A model generated the notes under the pieces. The model did not search any database. It saw only the letters and a program-made list of their open reading frames with translations, and was not told the DNA's origin. DNA of 64,000 bases from Nitrospinaceae bacterium. Its GTDB lineage: Bacteria > Nitrospinota > Nitrospinia > Nitrospinales > Nitrospinaceae. The DNA lies in contig JAHELC010000007.1 in assembly GCA_024644405.1 (NCBI GenBank), forward strand, positions 1 through 64,000. The letters run 5' to 3'. Below, in pieces: positions 1 to 47,380 of this stretch; position 1 is the stretch's first letter, and every line of letters starts with the position of its first letter. The position numbers and the translations under genes are program-made.

Positions 1-2
1 TT

Positions 3-389
3 GCCGGGGTGTTGGCTTTGGGACTGCACAGTACGGCGGCGCTGGGCAAACTGTTTTCCGAACAGATTGAAAGTATCGACCCGGGACCGGTTGAAGCCAT
101 CACCGCTACCGGTGCCCGTCCGCTGCAAGTCGTATTGTATGGAGTTTTGCCGCAGGTGGTGCCGCAATTTCTGGCGTTGGGATTCTACCGGTGGGATATC
201 AATGTACGCATGTCGACCATCATCGGGTTTGTCGGGGGTGGAGGTATCGGGTTTCTGCTCCAGCAATGGATCAATTTGCTCCAGTACCATCAGGCGGGAA
301 CGGCGTTGCTGGCGATTGCTCTCGTGGTGATATCACTGGACATGATCAGCGCCCGCCTGCGCGAAAAAATAACCGGCCCGCCAGCGTGA
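3..389 (+). CDS. phnE: Phosphonate-type ABC transporter permease, C-terminal part (cut by window edge)
   Basis: Inner-membrane permease subunit of a phosphonate/phosphite-type ABC importer; only the last ~128 residues are inside the window and the reading frame is open to the left edge. The segment carries the EAA loop that contacts the ATPase: E-A-x-x-A-x-G-A-R-P followed by a V-L-P-Q motif at about residues 30-50, then G-F-V-G-G-G-G-I-G, typical of PhnE C-termini, and a last hydrophobic helix (LLAIALVVISLDMISA). The ABC ATPase and binding protein would lie to the left, out of view. A more general BPD-transport permease is the alternative; the G-G-G-G-I-G motif favours PhnE. Confidence 0.82.
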   Translation, partial: AGVLALGLHSTAALGKLFSEQIESIDPGPVEAITATGARPLQVVLYGVLPQVVPQFLALGFYRWDINVRMSTIIGFVGGGGIGFLLQQWINLLQYHQAGTALLAIALVVISLDMISARLREKITGPPA

Positions 390-391
390 CG

Positions 392-406
392 GCGGCGAAT
401 CGCCGC
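392..406. repeat. GC-rich hairpin after phnE
   Basis: GCGGCG-AAT-CGCCGC, a perfect 6-bp stem with a 3-nt loop directly after the phnE stop. There is no U-run, so it is not a textbook terminator. The AATCGCC core recurs in the hairpin at 48121-48159. Confidence 0.45.
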
Positions 407-487
407 GGATAAATCTAAAACCTTGAATTGCGCCCAACGACTCTCGGGAGCCGTAAACTGTCAGCACGTTCCCTCTCCAGGCAGGAG

Positions 488-1336
488 TTACCAGAGCGGG
501 AGATTATATTCTTTTTCCGGTTTGGGTGCCGGCTCAGGCTCTACTTCCTGAGACAACGTGTTTTGAGCCACCACCTTGGGTTGAGGTTCAAAACCGTATT
601 TTGGATCGTCCGTCCAGCCCATCCATTCTGAGCTCTCGTATTTGGGTTTTTCCGGCTGGGCGATCTGATTCATATAATTACTGAATTGCCGGGATGATTC
701 GGGCAGGTGTTTCACTTTGCCGTCGATCATGATTTCTTCCGGAGTCAGTTTTGCATTGTAATGCGCTTCGTTGTAACTCACGTTCTGCTTGATAATGGTT
801 CCTTTCAAAGACACTCCACCGAATAACCCCTTACTTCGGGAATACGAATACGTGTCTCCCTGCAATAAAATATCGATGCCCAACTCAGCATGGCGGCCCA
901 CCGGACCGGCTGTGACGGCAATATCTCCCCCCAACGTGAAGTTGTTATTCAAAAGACCCTTGATGCCTTTCTCGGTCATAACGATTAAAATCAGATCCAC
1001 CGCCTGAGCTCCGAATTGAAAACCAAAACTGCCGCCCAGGGTGGTGATGAACGACGGCGGTCCCCATTGACCCGTTTTGGAGTTCCGTACCGTTGCCACT
1101 CCCTTGCCGTACCGGGCACCGATAAAGAACCCTCCTTTGAGCATAGAGGGAAAAACGATGATCGCTTGCGCCCGGGACATGAGACCGGAAGGAATCCCCA
1201 GATCCGGCGCACTTAAGATTTCTTCCACCACGGTCCTGGCGTCCTTCAATAATTCCTGCTGGGAGGTTTCATCAGCGGCATAAACGTTGGAAGTCCAGAA
1301 AAACGCTAATACCAGAAAGAATGAGAGGATTTTCAT
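488..1336 (-). CDS. SYLF (Ysc84-like) domain protein, exported
   Basis: Predicted periplasmic or outer-membrane-associated lipid-binding protein, 282 aa. The start at 1336 is chosen because GGAG lies 9 nt upstream and the protein then begins with a clear signal peptide (MKILSFFLVLAFFWTSNVYA). The ATG at 1453 would add 39 residues without a ribosome site. Residues ~25-200 match the SYLF family: an A-x-A-I-I-V-F-P segment, G-G-F-F-I-G-A-R-Y-G-K-G, G-G-S-F-G-F-Q-F-G and a G-L-F-G-G-V-S-L-K-G-motif, ending in the usual ..YN. The last ~60 residues are a Pro/Glu/Lys-rich tail outside the domain. Bacterial SYLF proteins bind lipids, but their physiological role is poorly defined. Confidence 0.85.
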   Translation of the reverse strand: MKILSFFLVLAFFWTSNVYAADETSQQELLKDARTVVEEILSAPDLGIPSGLMSRAQAIIVFPSMLKGGFFIGARYGKGVATVRNSKTGQWGPPSFITTLGGSFGFQFGAQAVDLILIVMTEKGIKGLLNNNFTLGGDIAVTAGPVGRHAELGIDILLQGDTYSYSRSKGLFGGVSLKGTIIKQNVSYNEAHYNAKLTPEEIMIDGKVKHLPESSRQFSNYMNQIAQPEKPKYESSEWMGWTDDPKYGFEPQPKVVAQNTLSQEVEPEPAPKPEKEYNLPLW

Positions 1337-1686
1337 GAATGAGACTCCTTCGAATGAAATGGTTTGGGAGGCGGGTATTAACATATTGATTATTCGGGAC
1401 TTATCACTAAAAATAACCGCAATAATCTTACAATGTTGAAAAACCAAATTCAATCGATTATTTTGATTTTTATTGATATAACTCTAATGACATCAATAAT
1501 TTAAATAGGTTGCTTGCGACCTTTTGCTGAAAAACCCCTTTAAAAAGCCTCTTTGAAGGAATCGACCGGGCTTGGCGAGGCCTCTCTCACAAGAAATCCC
1601 CTATTAAAAAAAATATTTTCATCCAGCGAATCCGCGAGTTAAATATATCTTTACCCACCCCTGAATCCCACATACCATGCGAGGTT
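1337..1686. other. Intergenic region between SYLF gene and dinG
   Basis: 350 bp between divergent genes, markedly AT-rich at 1430-1520 and 1600-1660. Apart from the putative SYLF promoter I see no RNA gene, repeat or convincing ORF. A dinG promoter presumably lies here, but no good -35/-10 pair stands out. Confidence 0.6.
1425..1453 (-). promoter_or_regulatory. Putative sigma70 promoter of the SYLF gene
   Basis: On the minus strand TTGAAT (1448-1453) and TAAGAT (1425-1430) are separated by exactly 17 bp, in a locally AT-rich stretch about 90 bp upstream of the chosen start. Two mismatches in each box, so moderate support. Confidence 0.4.
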
Positions 1687-3669
1687 ATGAATGTCGCCGA
1701 TATCAAAACATATTTCGAAAGCGGCGGAGTCCTGTCGCAAAAACTGAATTCCTTTGAGTTCCGTCCCCAACAACTGGAAATGGCGCGTGAAGTGGCCGCA
1801 TCCCTGGAGGAAGGCCATCACCTGATAGTCGAAGCCGGCACCGGGACCGGAAAAAGCCTGGCCTATCTGATCCCGGCGGTGTTGTGGGCACTGCAAAACG
1901 AAACCCGCGTCATCGTATCAACCTATACCAAAACCCTGCAGGAACAGATTGTGAATCAGGACATTCCCTTTCTACGCGATGTGCTGGGACTGCCGTTCAA
2001 ATACTCGCTGTGCATGGGCAGCGAAAACTACCTGTCCCTGCGGCGGATGAAACGGGCCAGCCAGACCCACCTGTTCGGTAACGTGGAAGAAGACGAACAA
2101 CTGAACGAAATTTTTCATTGGGCCGGTCGAACGGAATCCGGTTTCCGCAACGATCTGCCGTTCGAGCCTTCCCCGGCCGTATGGGAAGAAGTCGGGCGGC
2201 AGAAGGATTTGTGCATGGGCAAACAGTGCGAAACCTTCAATTCCTGCTTTTATTTTAAGGAAAGGCGCAAATGGTTCGGGGCGCATATCCTGATCGTCAA
2301 CCACCATCTGTTCTTTGCCAATGTGGCCAACAGTGGCGCGGTGCTGCCCCGTTACGACGCGGTCATTTTCGATGAAGCACAGAACCTGGAAGAGGCCGCC
2401 ACTTCTTTTCTGGGACTGGAAATTTCCAACTCCGGTTTGTACTATTTTCTCGACCGTCTCTACAACGCCAAAACGAAACGCGGCACGCTTGCGCGATTGC
2501 GAGAGGACTTGACCGTTGAAATCCGGCAAAAGATCAGTAAGGTGCGGATTGCCGTGGAAGGATTCTTTGAAAACCTGTTCGATGCATACGGAAGAAGGGA
2601 ACGCACCCTGCGTTTTCACAGCCCACCCACCTTGAACAATACCCTGTTCATTCCTTTACAGGATTTGCACGAAGCGTTGAAATCCCTCGAGCACCGGGTC
2701 ACTTCGGAAGAAGAACAACTGGAAGTCTCGGCTGCGGCCAATCGCGTGTTCGAATACAACAACACCATCTCCGCTTTGTTGAATCAGAACATGAAAGAGT
2801 ATGTCTACTGGCTGGAGGTCACTCCAAAAAAACGGTTCACCCGCGCCACCCTGCGGGGAATGCCCATCAACATCAATGAAGAACTGCACGAACAGGTGTT
2901 CTCCAAAATTGACCGGACCGTTCTGACCTCCGCCACTTTAACCACCAACCGCAATTTCGAACACATTAAAGAACGCCTCGGTTACACGCCGAAGGAGGAG
3001 TCCACCCTGGATTCGCCGTTCGATTACACCCGCCAGGCTCTGCTGTACCTGCCGCAGGATATGCCGGAGCCGGGAGAGGATGTCGCCAAATACGTCACGG
3101 CCCTTGCCGACCGGACGTTGGAGCTCGTCCAGGCCACGGAAGGCAAAACTTTTGTACTGTTTACCAGTTATGACATTCTCAACCGCGTGCATCGAATACT
3201 TGATCCCAAACTCCATCAATATCAGATATTAAAGCAGGGCGACCTGGCACCCAGCCGGATGATCCAGCGCTTCAAGGAAAAACCTTCGGTCATTTTTGGA
3301 ACCAGTTCGTTCTGGCAGGGAGTGGATATACCCGGGGATGCATTGTCGAGTGTGATCATTACCAAATTACCGTTCGACGTGCCCACCGAACCCCTGGTTG
3401 AAGCTCGCATCGAGGATATGAAAAAACGGTCGATCAATCCGTTCAAGCATTACCAGATACCGCGGGCGATCATTCAACTGCGGCAGGGATTCGGCCGACT
3501 GATCCGCAAACGTACGGACAAAGGAGTGGTGGCGATTCTCGATTCGCGCATGACCCAACGCAGTTACGGCAAACAGTTCTTAAGTTCGCTTCCCGAGTGC
3601 GCTCAAACCCAGAACCTGGAAGATGTAAAAAAATTTATTTCCCAACGAACCGTTGCGCCCAAAACGTGA
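1687..3669 (+). CDS. dinG: DinG/XPD-family DNA helicase
   Basis: Superfamily 2 helicase of the DinG/Rad3 type, 660 aa, predicted to unwind DNA or R-loops 5'-3' in repair. Visible motifs are Walker A EAGTGTGKS at 49-57, a DEAQ box (residues 229-232, where many relatives have DEAH), HILIVNHHLFF at ~200-210, S-A-T-L after the Fe-S/arch region, and Q-G-F-G-R-L-I-R (motif VI) near 600. The Fe-S region has C176, C181 and C187 with the spacing known in E. coli DinG (5 and 6 residues). The first ligand position in N-Y-L-C is serine here (S117), with a cysteine at 109 instead. The gene is monocistronic, converging on a TPR gene 20 bp beyond its stop. Lacks an exonuclease domain. Confidence 0.9.
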   Translation: MNVADIKTYFESGGVLSQKLNSFEFRPQQLEMAREVAASLEEGHHLIVEAGTGTGKSLAYLIPAVLWALQNETRVIVSTYTKTLQEQIVNQDIPFLRDVLGLPFKYSLCMGSENYLSLRRMKRASQTHLFGNVEEDEQLNEIFHWAGRTESGFRNDLPFEPSPAVWEEVGRQKDLCMGKQCETFNSCFYFKERRKWFGAHILIVNHHLFFANVANSGAVLPRYDAVIFDEAQNLEEAATSFLGLEISNSGLYYFLDRLYNAKTKRGTLARLREDLTVEIRQKISKVRIAVEGFFENLFDAYGRRERTLRFHSPPTLNNTLFIPLQDLHEALKSLEHRVTSEEEQLEVSAAANRVFEYNNTISALLNQNMKEYVYWLEVTPKKRFTRATLRGMPININEELHEQVFSKIDRTVLTSATLTTNRNFEHIKERLGYTPKEESTLDSPFDYTRQALLYLPQDMPEPGEDVAKYVTALADRTLELVQATEGKTFVLFTSYDILNRVHRILDPKLHQYQILKQGDLAPSRMIQRFKEKPSVIFGTSSFWQGVDIPGDALSSVIITKLPFDVPTEPLVEARIEDMKKRSINPFKHYQIPRAIIQLRQGFGRLIRKRTDKGVVAILDSRMTQRSYGKQFLSSLPECAQTQNLEDVKKFISQRTVAPKT

Positions 3670-39935: not shown

Positions 39936-42386
39936 TTAACCGAGGATGGCGGCAGGCTTCTCTTGTTTGATCGGAAGCAAAACGGTGAAGGTCGACCCGT
40001 GGCCCGGCTGGCTGTCTACCAGAATTTCCCCGTTGTGTTTTTTGACAATGCCATAAGTCACGGAAAGCCCCAACCCAGTGCCCTTGACGCTGGGTTTGGT
40101 GGTAAAGAACGGGTCAAAGATATTCTTCATCACCTGCGGGGGTATACCGGATCCCGTATCCTTGATTTGAATCTGCACTTTCCCTTTCTCGGTAGAGGTG
40201 GCAACGGTCACCCTCCCGCCCCCCTCGGGGATTGCCTCTTCGGCATTTTGTAATATGTTTAAAATGACCTGCTTGAATTGATCCGGCACGGCTTCAATGT
40301 GTGGTATGTCTGACGTATACTCTCTGACCAGTTCGATATCACGCATTCTGAATTTCTTCTGGATCAAAAGAATCATATCGTCGATGGATTCATGAACATC
40401 GATCCACTCTTTTTCATCCGGGGACGGACTGTGAAAATCCAGAATTTTCCGGATCAGCAGGGTGATCCGGTCACACTCCTGTATCGCCAATTGGACAAAG
40501 CGTTGATTGCTGCCATCCATTTGGACCCGCCTCAATATTTTTTCAAGAACATTGCGTATGCCAAAAATGGGATTGTTGAATTCATGCGCTATGGAAGCGG
40601 CCATCTTGCCGGTGGCGGACAATTTTTCGGCGTGCAGCAGCTGCAAATGCGTCGATTCCAGGTCGGACGTTCTTTGCAGGACCAGTTCCTCGAGATGATG
40701 CCGGTGACGGGCCAGCTCTTCTTCCACCTGTTTGCGTTCGCTGATATCTATATCGCTGCCGACCATTCTCAAGGGTTTGCCATTTTCATCACGCGAGACG
40801 ACTTGGCCTCGGTCAAGATTCCATCGATAGGTGCCTAATTTGGTCAGAAGCCGGTTTTCAAATTGGTAATAAGGCGTTTTCCCTTCAAGATGGGCGTTCA
40901 AAATTTCCTTTAATCTGGGCATGTCGTCGGGATGCACTAGCTTCTCCCACGTTTTAATATGCGGCTTCAGTTCACCGGGCTCGTAACCCAGCGAGCGAAA
41001 CCATTGGGGACTGAAAATCACATGACCGGTTGTGATGTTCCAGTCCCACACCCCGTCGCTGGTGGCCTCCAGTGCGAGACTCAGCCGTTCTTCACTTACC
41101 TGCAACGCCCTTTCCGCCTGCTCGCGTTCGGTGATGTCCTGGACAACACCCACAAAAACCGGATAGATCTCGGCAAAAGACAAATGGATCCGTACTTCGA
41201 TGGGATAAAACGTCCCATCTTTACGCCGGTGTGTGGTTTGAAAAGTCACCAGGTCTTTCGTTCCGTAGTGTAGCGGTTTAAGGAGCGTTTCAAATTCCTC
41301 TCGGGTGAAACCCGGCTTCAGGTCCAACGGGGTCAGGGACTGCAGTTCCTCCAGCGAATAACCCAAATTCTCCCGGGCTCCCCGGTTGACTTGAATGAAC
41401 TTGAGAGTTTTCGCGTCGAACAGATAAATTTCATTGGAAGATTCGTCCAGCACTCGTCCCAACCGGACCGATTGCGTGTGCGCGTTGGCGGCTTCGGTTG
41501 TCGCTGCGGACAGTACCAGTGTCATGATCGCCAGAATTACCATGTACGTAGCCAACTGGGAAATCGATTCTTCCATAGACGCATGCACGAAGGGTCCGCG
41601 GCCCGCCATGGTTCCCCAGACCGCAATTGTGAAAAATATCAGAATCCCAATAAGGGCTCCGGGATGACCGAAACGATAAGCCGCCCAAACCAGGCAGGGG
41701 GCCAACAGGTAGACCAGGGGGTGATCACTCACTTGAAACCAGTTCCCAAACACCACCTGGCTGGTGATGTAGAATAGTAATAACAGGACACCGGCCTCGA
41801 GTCGGCGGGCGGGGGTCCATTTGATATTCAAAGGCCTGCGAAATACGAAAAACAAGGGAGTGACCATAAGAACCGCCATGACATCGCCCAGCCACCAGGA
41901 GACTCCTTCCTGAAGCAGTTTCTCGCTGGGCAACAGCCCAACCCCGCCAAGAACCCCCATGCTCAGAATGGGGCTGACGACATATCCCAATCCCCCCACA
42001 AGAAATATATAGGTCAGGGCATCTCTGGTCCGGTCCAAGGGATTGTGTGAACCGACAAACCGATTAAAAAGAAAAGTCCCCAGCAGCGCCTGGACGGTCA
42101 CCGAAAAAGCGATTCCGAAACAGATCGTGGCAAGGATTGAACCCGGAATACTAGAAGCCGGAATCGTATTAGTCGTGAACCAGTAGGTGAACGCCAATTC
42201 ACCCAGAAAAATTCCCGGCCATAGTCGATACCCGTAACAGATGAGCGCTCCCAACGCAACGCCGACCGCCGGATAGATGGGCAAGGCATAATCTTTCGGC
42301 AAACCCAGCTTGGTGACGCTCCAGGACATCACAAAATACGCCCCGGCCAGGGCCAATATTTTCAAAATCTGATGGTGAGCCGTCAT
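39936..42386 (-). CDS. MASE1-PAS-PAS sensor histidine kinase
   Basis: 816-aa inner-membrane hybridless kinase. The start at 42386 has GGAAAG ~7 nt upstream; an in-frame start at 42458 lacks one. MASE1-like N-terminus with about eight to ten hydrophobic helices (~8-300; contains G-L-P-K-D-Y-A and [11 protein letters not shown]), two PAS domains (~310-435 with S-N-E-I-Y-L-F-D-A, ~440-565 with A-T-S-D-G-V-W-D-W), the HisKA H-box S-I-A-H-E-F-N-N-P, and an HATPase with N-x-x-x-N-A-E-E-A-I, D-T-G-S-G-I-P and G-T-G-L-G-L-S. No response regulator is adjacent, so it is an orphan kinase. Divergent from the cyclase-TIR operon. Confidence 0.92.
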
Positions 42387-42493
42387 TTTAAACTTTCCAT
42401 ATCGGAGAACACATATTACAGACAGATTTCCATGATTTCCATTGAGTATAAGGCCCACTCCGGCGCGACTCCAAACCTTTTTCCATGATTTTG

Positions 42494-42715: not shown

Positions 42716-44506
42716 ATGCAGTTGGAGTCACTGGCTTGCCAGGCGCGCGAGCTATTAAAAAAAGGAGATTTTGTCGGGGTCTATGATGTGGCCTACAAAG
42801 CTCTCGAAGACCAGGGAAGTGCCGACCCGACTTTGGCTCATTTGGCTGTTCTCAGTCTGGCCAGAAGCGGCGCTACGACCCAGGCGGAACAGTTGTACCG
42901 GAAAGTCAAAGACATCCTGCCTCCCACCGAGGAAAACCTTTCGCTGGAAGCAAGATTGTATAAAGACCAATGTTTAAAAGCAAAGGATCCCGAAATCAAA
43001 ACATCATTGGGGAAAAAAGCCCGGGACCTTTATCTCGAAGCGTATCGGATCAATCGGGATTACTACCCCGCCATTAATGCCGCGACTTTGTCATTGATCA
43101 TTGGCGATAACAAATCCTGCCACCGTCTGGCCAGGGAAGTTTTGAAACTCTGCAATCAAAGTTCCTCCACTTACAACGGCGAGGATTACTATCTCGACGT
43201 GACGCGTGCCGAGGCGAATCTGCTGTTAGGAAACGAGGGTGCAATCGCCCCGATGTTGTCCCATGCCTACCGGGGCCATTCCCATGATTACGGGAAGCTG
43301 AGCACCACCTGGAAACAATTGTCTCTGATCTGCGAACAACGGGGAATCTCAACCGATTGCATCCAGGACATCCAGCCTCCCACGGTAATCGCGTTTATGG
43401 GCCAAACCATTCATGGCATGGGGAAGTCCCCCGGCATCGATCCCGCGGACGAGGAGACGCTCCGCAAGCAGATTCGAAACCTGCTGGAAAAGCATAACAT
43501 CAAAATCGCGTTTGGGGCGCTGGCCTGCGGCGCGGATTTAATGGTTGCTGAGGAAATATTGAAGCAAAAGGGCGAATTGAACGTGATACTGCCGTTCTCT
43601 CGCGAGGAATTCAAACGCACCTCGGTCTCTCCGGCGGGTCCCGCCTGGGAGGAAAAATTTGACCGGGCGCTGGAACGCGCGGCCTCGGTGTATGAAATCG
43701 TGGAGGACGCTTATACCGGCTACGACCTGCTGTACGAGGCGTGTTCCCTGCAGATCATGGGACTGGCTTATCTGCGGTCACAAACCCTGGGATCCCAGGC
43801 CTTCCAGGTGGTGCTGTGGAACGGTCAACCGTCTGCCAGTCCCGGGGGCACCGCCGCTGCCATGCAGCAGTGGGAGACTTTGGGACAACAGAACCTGGTG
43901 ATCCCGGTGCCGGAGCCCCGTTCCAAAGGAGTGACTCCGTTACCGGTTGCCGCATCCCAGAAAATAGAGCTGAAACGCCATATGAAGGCCATGATTTTTG
44001 CCGATGTCAAAGGCTACAGCAGTCTCAAGGAGAAACAACTGCCACAGTTTATTTCCAGATGGTTCCACCACCTGGAACAGGTTTTCAACAACCATTCCGG
44101 GGAAATCCTGTTCGCCAATACCTGGGGAGACGCGATTTATCTGGTCATGGATTCCGTGTCTTCCGCCGCCCGGGTTTCGCTGGAGCTGACCCGGATTTTC
44201 TCCGACCAGGAGCTGGCCGAGCTGGCTTTGCCCGAGGACCTGGGATTGCGGGTCGCAACGCATGTCGGACCGATATTTGAGGGGCACAATCCGCTCACCG
44301 GTAAAAAAGAGTATTTTGGGACGCATGTCAACAAAACCGCCCGGTTGGAGCCCTGCACTCCGGTGGGATCGGTTTACGTGACGGAACCCTTTGCAGCGCT
44401 GATTTCCATCGAGGCGGCCGGGGTATATCGGTGTGAGTACGTGGGCAACCATCCTCTGCCCAAAAATTTTGGAAGAATCCGCATGTATCACCTGGGAGAA
44501 AATTAA
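42716..44506 (+). CDS. TPR/SLOG-like/class III nucleotidyl cyclase fusion
   Basis: 596 aa, predicted cytosolic. Residues 1-215: TPR-like helices similar in layout to the TRAFs-binding (DUF4071) regions of signalling proteins. Residues ~222-395: Rossmann-like domain of SLOG type (T-V-I-A-F-M-G-Q, F-G-A-L-A-C-G-A-D-L-M-V-A-E-E, N-V-I-L-P-F). Residues ~424-596: class III cyclase homology domain with first metal Asp430 in F-A-D-V-K-G-Y-S, second Asp472 in N-T-W-G-D-A, and transition-state Asn539/Arg543 in H-V-N-K-T-A-R. The usual adenine-specifying Lys and Asp positions are Asn468 and Thr536, so the product base cannot be predicted. AAGG precedes the ATG. First gene of a three-gene operon with a binding protein and a TIR protein. 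Confidence 0.85.
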   Translation: MQLESLACQARELLKKGDFVGVYDVAYKALEDQGSADPTLAHLAVLSLARSGATTQAEQLYRKVKDILPPTEENLSLEARLYKDQCLKAKDPEIKTSLGKKARDLYLEAYRINRDYYPAINAATLSLIIGDNKSCHRLAREVLKLCNQSSSTYNGEDYYLDVTRAEANLLLGNEGAIAPMLSHAYRGHSHDYGKLSTTWKQLSLICEQRGISTDCIQDIQPPTVIAFMGQTIHGMGKSPGIDPADEETLRKQIRNLLEKHNIKIAFGALACGADLMVAEEILKQKGELNVILPFSREEFKRTSVSPAGPAWEEKFDRALERAASVYEIVEDAYTGYDLLYEACSLQIMGLAYLRSQTLGSQAFQVVLWNGQPSASPGGTAAAMQQWETLGQQNLVIPVPEPRSKGVTPLPVAASQKIELKRHMKAMIFADVKGYSSLKEKQLPQFISRWFHHLEQVFNNHSGEILFANTWGDAIYLVMDSVSSAARVSLELTRIFSDQELAELALPEDLGLRVATHVGPIFEGHNPLTGKKEYFGTHVNKTARLEPCTPVGSVYVTEPFAALISIEAAGVYRCEYVGNHPLPKNFGRIRMYHLGEN

Positions 44507-44507
44507 C

Positions 44508-46202
44508 ATGGCACAGCGGCGGTTGATCTATCTATGGGTACTGGCTTTGCTGTGGTGTGTGATAGGTCCGGGGACCGCGGTGGCCCAGCAACGAACGCCC
44601 ATCCAGTTTCTTTCGGTGGCCCCGGATGCGGATACCCGGCTGGCCGACCAGAAACTTCTGGATTATTTGCGTCACAAAGTCGCCATTACATTTGAAAAAC
44701 AGGAAATGGAATATGAGACGGCCATCAAAACCCTGGTGGACTGGGATTCGGGAAAACAAGGGCCCTTGTTGGCCCGGGTCACTCCTTACGCCTATGTCGT
44801 TGCGGAAATGCTGGGGGCGGATATGGAAATTGTGGGAACGTATTTAAACAAAAAATCCAACAGCGTGACCCATGGAACTTACTTCGTCGTCCACAAAGAA
44901 TTCGGTTATGAAAAAACCGAAGCTCTGGAAGATTTTGCCCGCCATATGGGAAACCAGGAGGCTCAGACAAATGATTTCATAAAAATCCTCAAACAGAGGG
45001 AAACACCCGCGCGTTTCATCTATCACAGCAAGTTCAGTACCTCGAGCCATTTTCTGCCTTCTTTATATTTCAAGCAGCAGGGCATCTTTTCCCTGTTCAC
45101 GCAACCTAAAGGCAAACAGAAATTCATCACGATTCACAGCCTGGTGCCGGATGGTATTGCGACCGCTTCCGATTTGATTCCCATCATCAAAGGCAGGCAG
45201 GCAGATTTCTCGGCAGTGCGCGAAAGCGTCAAGAACCAGTTCGACACCGATCCGGATCTCAAATTCATCCAACTGCCTTATTCGACTCCCAACGACCTCC
45301 TGGTGATGGTCAAACCGTTTAACAAACTCATCAGCCAGATCAAGGACCAGATACTCGAAACGATCCGGAAGATGGAAGCGACCGACATCAACGAGGGAGA
45401 CATATTGAAATGGGAAGATTTCAATGCCAGCCCGAAGGCGCGAAAGTCACTGGCCAACCTGCGTCACATGGCCAAAACCACGCCCCATCCCGTGGTGGTC
45501 AACATTCGCAAATCTCAAAAGGAAAACTCGGGAATCGATGAAAAACACCTGGAGGCGGCCCGGCAGGCGGTGCGTTTTTCAGGAACGGAAATGATCCTCT
45601 TCGATGAAGACTACCACAGCGCGTTTGACGTCCTCTGGACGCTGGAAACCCGGCATGACCGCTCGATCCTGCTGACCAGCACGATCATGGATTCGGGCCT
45701 GACCCAGGAATTCTCCGTAAGCTACCGCAACGAAGATATGGAGAACCTGGCGTCGCGCATCAGCTGGGTGATCGATCATAAAATGCACCGCATCCGCTAT
45801 GTCTGGCCGTTCGATGACGAATCCGCGCGGGTGCTGCGGGATGTTGATTTTCAGATTCCCGTGGGACAGCAACTGAAGGTTCAAAAAATCACGTGGACGG
45901 ATTTCAACACCAACGAATACACGGTAGACACCCCCTTTGACGTGGAGGTCACACAATCGGATTTTCATTCTTTCCAGCTGAAGGGCAAGGGCTTCCCGCA
46001 AAAGGAGGACGGCAAGCTCGGGTTCGAGCCCCTGGGCAATGTGGCTTATCGGGTGTTTCTGGAGCGAACCCCCAATGCCGGGGACACCTACAAAATAACA
46101 ACTAAAATTTTGATTGGGTTGCTTGGCCTGGCCGCCTTGTTCACTTTGGTCGAGGTGATCATCAAACCCAAAACGCCCGATCCTCTTAAAGAAAAATCAT
46201 GA
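44508..46202 (+). CDS. Membrane-anchored PhnD-like periplasmic binding protein
   Basis: 564 aa. The start at 44508 is one base after the cyclase stop, with GGGAG 10 nt upstream. Signal peptide 1-26 (L-W-V-L-A-L-L-W-C-V-I-G, TAVA-QQ). Residues ~32-290 resemble phosphonate/phosphite-type (PhnD) binding proteins: F-L-S-V-A-P-D start, S-T-S-S-H-F-L-P-S-L-Y-F, A-D-F-S-A-V-R-E and Y-S-T-P-N-D-L-L-V. Residues ~300-525 are a further region I do not recognise. A single transmembrane helix near 535-555 (I-L-I-G-L-L-G-L-A-A-L-F) precedes a short basic cytosolic tail. This suggests an envelope ligand sensor rather than a transport component: no permease or ATPase is nearby. Confidence 0.78.
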   Translation: MAQRRLIYLWVLALLWCVIGPGTAVAQQRTPIQFLSVAPDADTRLADQKLLDYLRHKVAITFEKQEMEYETAIKTLVDWDSGKQGPLLARVTPYAYVVAEMLGADMEIVGTYLNKKSNSVTHGTYFVVHKEFGYEKTEALEDFARHMGNQEAQTNDFIKILKQRETPARFIYHSKFSTSSHFLPSLYFKQQGIFSLFTQPKGKQKFITIHSLVPDGIATASDLIPIIKGRQADFSAVRESVKNQFDTDPDLKFIQLPYSTPNDLLVMVKPFNKLISQIKDQILETIRKMEATDINEGDILKWEDFNASPKARKSLANLRHMAKTTPHPVVVNIRKSQKENSGIDEKHLEAARQAVRFSGTEMILFDEDYHSAFDVLWTLETRHDRSILLTSTIMDSGLTQEFSVSYRNEDMENLASRISWVIDHKMHRIRYVWPFDDESARVLRDVDFQIPVGQQLKVQKITWTDFNTNEYTVDTPFDVEVTQSDFHSFQLKGKGFPQKEDGKLGFEPLGNVAYRVFLERTPNAGDTYKITTKILIGLLGLAALFTLVEVIIKPKTPDPLKEKS

Positions 46203-47380
46203 ACCATCGTATTTTAAATAATCGCCTGGGATTGGTCTTCATTCTACTCGCGCTGTTCATCGTCAACTATATCCAGACCCAGATGGAGGTGAACCTGAAG
46301 ACCCCGGCGCAGTATGAAACGGGTTACCAAATCGCCCAGGCGTTTATGGAATTGGAAGGGAATCTGGATTTCTCCCGATTTGAGGACCTCGGGGTAGGGG
46401 CCGCGGCCGCCCATTCCATTTCCTTTTACATTTTGTTCCCTGTGTTATTGCTGGCGGTGATTGCCGGTCTCCTGTTCCGCCGAGAGATCACTCCCTTCCG
46501 CGTGATGACCCTGGGACTCGCGATCAGTTATGTGATCTCCCTGGCCTTTTTTATCTTTTTCCCGGTTCCGGAACGATGGGCCCTCCCGCAGGCCAATGCC
46601 CTATTGCTGTCCGATCAGTGGTCTACCGGGTGGGTGGAATTTTACCGATCGTTCCGGGCGCTGGACAACTCTTTCCCCAGCCTGCCGGCCGCGTTTACCC
46701 TGGTCATGATATTTGTCTGTTACCGTTACCGGTTTAAATTCAAAAATCCAATTTGCCTGCTGGGAATCATGGTGATTCTTTCTTCATTCACCCTGGGGAT
46801 TCACTGGATGCCGGATCTGGTCATGGGCGGATTTTTAGGCGTCTTCAGTGCATCCCTGGCCGTCCTGTGGGACCACCGCATCGTGGACAAGATTAAAAAG
46901 GTGCAACCCGAACTGGCCACCCAGGGCGCCACGGTCATGAGAATCAAACTGCCGGAGAAAAAAACGACCTTCATCAGTTATCGCAGGGAGACCGGTTCCA
47001 TCATGGCGCGCATCGTTCAATCGGAATTGAAAAAAAGGGGACACCTTTCATTTCTGGATGTCGACGACCTCGGACCGAAACAGTTCGGTGAACGGTTGTT
47101 GCGGGAAATCGAATCGGTGCCCAATTTCGTGGTGGTGTTGTCGCCCGGTTCGATGGACCGCTGCGAGCAACATGACGACTGGTTGCGGCGGGAAATCTCC
47201 CACGCCATCACCACCCACCGGAACATCGTTCCCCTCATGGTGGATGAATTTCAATACCCTCCCAAGGAAAAGATCCCGGATGAGCTGGAGGAACTCCTGC
47301 ATCACAATGGCGTCAATTATTCCCACGAATACTTCGCCGCCACCTTTGACAAGCTCTCCGACTTTCTCCAAAAGACATAG
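46199..47380 (+). CDS. PAP2-like six-helix membrane protein with C-terminal TIR domain
   Basis: 393 aa. The ATG overlaps the previous stop by 4 bp, indicating translational coupling. Hydrophobic helices at about 10-25, 73-93, 103-122, 162-178, 184-200 and 206-223 form a PAP2_3/Aur1-like module: D-N-S-F-P-S-L-P-A (156-164) and H-W-M-P-D (202-206). The first catalytic His of PAP2 (PSxH) is Pro163, so phosphatase activity is doubtful. Residues ~256-390 are a bacterial TIR domain: F-I-S-Y-R-R-E (258-264), F-L-D-V-D-D-L, V-V-V-L-S-P-G-S-M-D-R-C and D-D-W-L-R-R-E-I, with the catalytic Glu at 332. A likely NADase or TIR signalling effector facing the cytosol. Confidence 0.88.
   Translation: MNHRILNNRLGLVFILLALFIVNYIQTQMEVNLKTPAQYETGYQIAQAFMELEGNLDFSRFEDLGVGAAAAHSISFYILFPVLLLAVIAGLLFRREITPFRVMTLGLAISYVISLAFFIFFPVPERWALPQANALLLSDQWSTGWVEFYRSFRALDNSFPSLPAAFTLVMIFVCYRYRFKFKNPICLLGIMVILSSFTLGIHWMPDLVMGGFLGVFSASLAVLWDHRIVDKIKKVQPELATQGATVMRIKLPEKKTTFISYRRETGSIMARIVQSELKKRGHLSFLDVDDLGPKQFGERLLREIESVPNFVVVLSPGSMDRCEQHDDWLRREISHAITTHRNIVPLMVDEFQYPPKEKIPDELEELLHHNGVNYSHEYFAATFDKLSDFLQKT

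Follow-up and report, generated by a model that had tools for sequence, protein, structure and literature searches.

The window analysed here, a 64,000-nucleotide stretch of a Nitrospinaceae bacterium genome, carries a three-gene operon on the forward strand (Table 1). The first gene encodes a protein in which a TPR-S domain, a SLOG domain and a class III nucleotide cyclase domain follow one another. The second, which is conserved in 9 of 9 Nitrospinaceae loci, encodes an exported-looking protein and starts after a 1-bp gap from the cyclase gene. The third, whose start overlaps the second gene by 4 bp and which is kept in 8 of 8 Nitrospinaceae loci reaching that far, joins a PAP2-like membrane domain to a C-terminal TIR domain. 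In every Nitrospinaceae locus of sufficient length, the three genes are conserved together. A search of twelve Nitrospinaceae genomes recovered the cyclase gene in each, full-length or broken by a contig end; in genome G005, no more than the final 22 codons are visible, at the end of a contig. The flanking genes are syntenic in several Nitrospinaceae genomes.

Table 1 Features of the cyclase–TIR operon in the window.
Feature	Position	Strand	Remarks
TPR-S – SLOG – class III cyclase gene	42716..44506	+	596 aa, P0001; AlphaFold model pLDDT 90.4
TPR-S domain, aa 28-126	42797..43093	+	PF20308 E=2.6e-14, over cut-off
SLOG domain, aa 216-402	43361..43921	+	Predicted-structure match; without Pfam hit
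Class III nucleotide cyclase domain, aa 421-595	43976..44500	+	PF00211 E=8.8e-8 and fold matches
Asp430, first metal ligand	44003..44005	+	D in 78/78 N-type and 30/30 canonical cyclases
Signature N468-T-W-G-D472, with Asn in place of Lys, Trp at Me2-2 and the second metal-binding Asp	44117..44131	+	Codons: N468 44117-44119, D472 44129-44131
Glu532, second base-specifying position, 7 before Asn539	44309..44311	+	Variable in clade
Thr536, not base-specifying	44321..44323	+	Same column as the GDxxN Asp of canonical cyclases
Asn539 and Arg543, transition-state pair	44330..44344	+	Codons: N539 44330-44332, R543 44342-44344; Arg invariant in clade
Gene 2, exported-looking protein, 564 aa	44508..46202	+	N-terminal hydrophobic signal-like segment, C-terminal TM
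Gene 3, PAP2-like membrane domain and C-terminal TIR	46199..47380	+	PF01569/PF14378 and PF13676 over cut-off
TIR domain with conserved Glu332 (W-L-R-R-E-I, NADase-type glutamate)	46970..47323	+	

Searches of Pfam, NCBIfam and PDB gave no family match for gene 2, and a reading of its product as a phosphonate-binding-like protein was unsupported by all three. Among the loci fetched, this gene was seen only in the Nitrospinaceae copies of the operon. A MASE1-PAS-PAS histidine kinase gene (39936-42458, minus strand) is divergent from the operon and adjoins it also in the congeneric loci L056, L058 and L060; it is possible that the kinase and the operon are functionally linked. IMG/VR and phage records contained no relatives, on which ground a phage or viral origin was rejected.

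The TPR-S domain of the first protein scores 54.1 bits with PF20308 against a gathering score of 27.6, and TPR-S was found in 47 of the 48 full-length members of the clade described below. TPR-S domains are said to have been predicted, by Burroughs and Aravind in 2020, to sense NAD+-derived signals made by TIRs. The Pfam match of the cyclase spans aa 425-582, and Pfam recognises nothing between it and the TPR-S domain. Foldseek matched the model of the cyclase domain to CyaB (3r5g), Cya2 (2w01) and CyaC (1wc1) with E-values of about 1e-8 to 1e-7. With the fold, the two metal-binding aspartates and the transition-state arginine all present, the protein is a class III nucleotide cyclase by fold and catalytic residues, and it probably makes a cyclic-nucleotide signal. 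The genome encodes four paralogues, all of them canonical class III cyclases.

The SLOG domain was seen by structure comparison alone, as Pfam and PDB profile searches detected none. The model of aa 216-402 (pLDDT 91.7) best matches YpsA (2nx2, E 7.8e-7, TM 0.66/0.69), followed by DprA, ShosA, LOG and TRPM2, and a profile built from this domain matches 77 of 80 clade members, the other three being fragments. In the predicted structure, the region has the SLOG Rossmannoid fold, and its likeness to YpsA holds at the level of the fold only. The cADPR-sensing SLOGs belong to a YpsA-like clade (PMC9503650), and in Thoeris, 3'cADPR produced by a TIR activates the SLOG of ThsA (PMC11204291).

The codon positions of the active-site residues were checked (Table 1). 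The original prediction had numbered all six of them correctly, but its span of 44009-44340 is too short, D430 and R543 lying just outside. Both metal-binding aspartates were rightly described as kept, since Asp430 and Asp472 are present and invariant in 78/78 clade rows. The transition-state pair Asn539/Arg543, also described as kept, is intact in the window protein, but Asn539 is not kept in its close relatives: the position is Thr in L058, L059, L061 and L062 and Ser in most of the clade. The proposal that Asn468 replaces the adenine-selecting lysine is borne out by its location four residues before the second metal Asp, in the column where the Glu of the guanylyl cyclase 3et6, the Lys of 3mr7 and the Lys of ordinary cyclases from the window genome and 18 other genomes align. 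An asparagine at this first base position is indeed unusual, as 29 of 30 ordinary class III cyclases have Lys there.

The second base-specifying residue had been placed at Thr536, an assignment that is out of register. In Ma1120 this residue sits 7 before the transition-state position (D157 and A164; PMC4215837); at the same distance the guanylyl cyclase 3et6 has Cys and canonical enzymes have D or T/S, and both the spacing and the alignments put the position at Glu532 in the window protein. Thr536 aligns with the Asp of a G-D-x-x-N motif present in 24 of 30 canonical cyclases, and this Asp makes no contact with the base. A 2-residue gap in one MAFFT alignment would blur 532 and 533, but in none of the alignments does the second base position fall at 536, so that spacing and alignment rule Thr536 out. 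The analogy drawn to class IIIb enzymes with Thr at this position had rested on the misplaced residue and lapses with it, the actual residue being the acidic Glu532. Of the two substitutions expected from an alignment with known cyclases, the non-Lys residue at 468 was therefore recovered, and the Thr at the second site was not. Where an ATP-specific adenylate cyclase has Lys at the first base position and Asp or Thr at the second, the window protein has Asn (N in 78/78 of the clade) and Glu (D, E, N, T, L, I or S in relatives).

Relatives of the cyclase were collected by a one-genome-per-species scan with a seven-sequence domain alignment and the motif TARLEPCT, and the best 80 of 182 were used. 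Asn occupies position 468 in 80 of 81 aligned rows, and in 78 of 78 once fragments and one outlier are removed (the 78-row counts leave out three fragments or outliers, L123 among them). Since the relatives had been retrieved by a different motif, this conservation is more than chance. The clade signature is N-[T/S]-W-G-D, in which N468, W470 and D472 are each found in 78/78 rows, with D430 and R543 also invariant; the 30 ordinary class III cyclases have I, V or M at 470 and Asn539 in 30/30. At the transition-state Asn position, the 78 clade rows have S in 41, N in 25, T in 10 and A in 2. In a tree with other cyclases, a branch with an SH-aLRT of 98 separates the N-type rows from the rest; the signature has an exception in the outlier L123, which reads R-T-T-G-D yet falls within the N-type clade. 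The scorable rows come from Nitrospinota, Pseudomonadota, Actinomycetota, Cyanobacteriota and Planctomycetota. Full-length members share the order TPR-S, SLOG, cyclase, of which SLOG and cyclase form the constant core and TPR-S is optional, being absent from about 17 sphingomonad proteins of about 380 aa. Asn468 is part of the fixed signature of a single widespread clade, not a quirk of one protein. That N468 and W470 stay fixed from phylum to phylum, in contrast to the drifting position 532, argues that the N-x-W pair is selected for something. As the Asn is fixed across the clade, a product other than cAMP, raised in the original prediction, is more worth testing than it would be for a lone variant.

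Most of the clade has Ser, Thr or Ala in place of the transition-state Asn, which might mean that the cyclase is catalytically dead and serves as a nucleotide sensor or dimerisation module, and inactive cNMP cyclase domains have been reported in other conflict systems (PMC7159879). However, both metal aspartates and the arginine are invariant (78/78), and other active cyclases lack this Asn, with Ala164 in Ma1120 and His in Rv1900c, which makes such a loss of activity very improbable.

The base-site residues also bear on the substrate. In an ordinary cAMP or cGMP cyclase, Asn468 could be tolerated as it is in some class IIIc enzymes, and a TIR neighbour could be a scaffold or an accident of inheritance. 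The mycobacterial Rv1900c, an Asn/Asp enzyme, uses ATP, Glu532 shares the acidic character of the usual Asp, and cAMP could be read by proteins among the 9 CNBD matches of the genome. Moreover, base-position residues predict substrate poorly, the second position being very diverse in known enzymes (PMC4215837). Against these points stand the fixation of N468 and W470 beside a drifting 532 and the lack of TIR neighbours at all 102 ordinary cyclases compared below, and we consider an ordinary cyclase rather unlikely. A pyrimidine cyclase outside Pycsar, in either signal direction, would be expected if N-x-W together with the aromatic residue at Me2+3 (Y475 in the window protein) narrows the pocket for UTP or CTP. 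The specificity residues of EaPycC, R142 and Q144 (Me2 D146), correspond to Me2-4 and Me2-2, and those of AnPycC, K104 and F109 (Me2 D106), to Me2-2 and Me2+3 (PMC11224242). At these positions the clade has N468, W470 and Y/F475, where canonical enzymes carry K, I/V/M and M/V/L/I, and PycTIR and CD-NTases are known to recognise uracil through Asn (PMC11224242). The alignment with the Pycsar pyrimidine cyclases that had been proposed thus reveals non-canonical residues at the overlapping positions Me2-4, Me2-2 and Me2+3, but not the same residues, which differ from those of every PycC described in PMC11224242. The domain profile matched 55 PDB sequences, none of them a PycC chain, and AnPycC (8jsz) is only a weaker fold match; a pyrimidine product seems doubtful.

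The TIR domain of gene 3 is the single TIR_2 match in the whole genome, and none of the CNBD matches lies near the operon. In the PAP2 domain, the catalytic His of the second motif (F-P-S-V-H) is kept in L062-L064, which belong to other genera. In the genus of the window, the same site is Pro (F-P-S-L-P, in the window) or Ser or Phe in congeners, and the TIR part is highly conserved. Judged from the loss of this His, the PAP2 domain is probably no longer a phosphatase in this genus.

Clustering of neighbours at the clade loci brought out TIR proteins. A six-frame search was used, since longest-ORF neighbour calling gave many spurious reverse-frame ORFs in GC-rich loci. It found TIR in the flanks of 49 of 80 loci, within 1.8 kb in 43 and within 700 bp in 34, these loci not being independent but falling into 25 clusters at 60% identity, 10 of them with an adjacent TIR. 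The TIR-bearing loci belong to Pseudomonadota, Acidobacteria, Actinomycetota, Cyanobacteriota, Planctomycetota and Nitrospinota. Near ordinary cyclases of the same genomes, the same profile found TIR at none of 40 loci (633 kb). As this profile had been trained on the test loci, the comparison was repeated on whole genomes with Pfam TIR_2. Across 18 genomes, 14/16 N-type cyclases versus 0/102 other class III cyclases have a TIR no more than 5 kb away (p=2e-16); the genomes were chosen mostly from loci with a known TIR, so that 14/16 overstates the rate and 43/80 is the unselected value. The absence of TIR neighbours from all 102 ordinary cyclases indicates that the link between cyclase and TIR is not accidental. 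About half of the clade loci have no TIR within reach, including L215, from another family of the same order, and Phenylobacterium. The NADase-type glutamate is retained in the partner TIRs, most of which are preceded or followed by a TM-like segment. Their architecture is PAP2-TIR in the window, and elsewhere TIR is combined with TM, LprI, WD40, TPR or NACHT; CNBD is absent from all partner TIR proteins scanned.

Some loci show further genes around the cyclase. Two Hyphomicrobiales have a stand-alone CNBD-like gene on the same strand as the N-type cyclase and about 550 bp upstream (L090:5476-5982 and L096:5548-5976), and the proteins encoded there are possible receptors of the cyclase product. 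On a Priestia aryabhattai plasmid (L052, NZ_CP128553.1), an N-T-W-G-D cyclase forms the N-terminus of a TPR-like protein, next to a RyR-domain gene, a Pycsar-effector-like gene and a TIR gene. On a Caballeronia plasmid (L051, NZ_CP049320.1), a distant TPR-S/SLOG/cyclase relative reads E-T-A-G-D instead of N-T-W-G-D, and the DUF4231 protein encoded upstream of it (1-1737, minus strand) matches the SLOG profile with an E-value of 5.5e-9.

An operon that holds the only TIR gene of the genome suggests a signalling relay from TIR to cyclase. We put at roughly 50% the reading in which an active N-x-W cyclase is controlled by its SLOG and TPR-S domains and works with the membrane TIR NADase of the same operon. 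The gene 2 protein and the PAP2-like domain, as the membrane or exported parts, would sense a stimulus, upon which the cytoplasmic TIR would cleave NAD+ to give an ADP-ribose-type signal. The SLOG/TPR-S part would bind this signal, the C-terminal cyclase domains would then pair and produce a 3',5'-cyclic mononucleotide, and the response would come from a CNBD protein whose gene lies elsewhere in the genome. A position of the cyclase downstream of the TIR fits the lack of CNBD on the partner TIR proteins scanned, and we infer TIR, then SLOG/TPR-S, then cyclase, then cNMP as the simplest order.

The signal might also run the other way, as in Pycsar, with the SLOG/TPR-S cyclase as the sensor, a cNMP activating the membrane TIR, and NAD+ depletion stopping growth by abortive infection. 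The pairing of cyclase and TIR does follow the PycC/PycTIR plan (PMC11224242), the catalytic residues of both proteins are conserved, and the cyclase relative on the Priestia plasmid lies near its Pycsar-effector-like gene. However, PycTIR receptors have an N-terminal CNBD, which no scanned partner TIR shares, PADLOC gives no match for the cyclase, and the SLOG domain would need another ligand. The vertical, syntenic inheritance in Nitrospinaceae and the absence from viral and phage collections are likewise unlike mobile defence, and we regard this direction as unlikely.

The relay from TIR to cyclase could be a widespread two-messenger system, in which the ADP-ribose-type signal of a membrane TIR is passed through an N-x-W SLOG(-TPR-S) cyclase to a cyclic mononucleotide other than cAMP; we offer this extension tentatively. 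Known bacterial readers of TIR-made, NAD-derived signals are toxic effectors, and a TIR partner with a second-messenger output would, if true, connect signalling by NAD derivatives with signalling by cyclic nucleotides. The system looks like vertically inherited genome equipment in Nitrospinaceae and many sphingomonads, not like a mobile defence island. A simple marker for the clade, of which one genome scan yielded at least 182 relatives, is its fixed N-x-W base site.

In the literature searched, a scope that did not include Burroughs and Aravind 2020, we found no described SLOG/TPR-S cyclase–TIR system; the N-x-W signature and the whole-genome TIR control come from this analysis. Canonical class III cyclases (Rv1625c, CyaC, CyaB and the four genome paralogues, with Lys/Asp or Lys/Thr) share the fold, the metal Asp pair and the Arg, whereas the clade has N-[TS]-W-G-D in place of K-x-[IVM]-G-D and a relaxed transition-state Asn, and branches separately. 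With the TPR-S conflict-system proteins (PF20308), the window protein shares the TPR-S domain. Pycsar (PycC with PycTIR or PycTM) is similar in its class III fold, its non-canonical base-site residues and its paired TIR, but here the TIR has no CNBD, the pocket residues are others, SLOG and TPR-S are fused to the cyclase, and the clade cyclase has no sequence match to PycC structures. Membership of Pycsar was rejected on the lack of a PADLOC match, of PycC among the 55 PDB matches and of a CNBD-TIR or PycTM partner. In Thoeris (ThsB TIR and ThsA SIR2-SLOG), as here, a TIR gene is paired with a SLOG protein whose second domain is the output enzyme, and the TIR gene in the operon has the NADase-type Glu. 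In contrast to a ThsA effector with SIR2-SLOG or TM-macro, the window protein has its SLOG fused to a class III cyclase and contains neither SIR2 nor macro. The TIR here is also membrane-anchored, TPR-S is often present, and inheritance in Nitrospinaceae is vertical. In our best reading, the system is Thoeris-like on its input side and Pycsar-like on its output side, and a member of neither.
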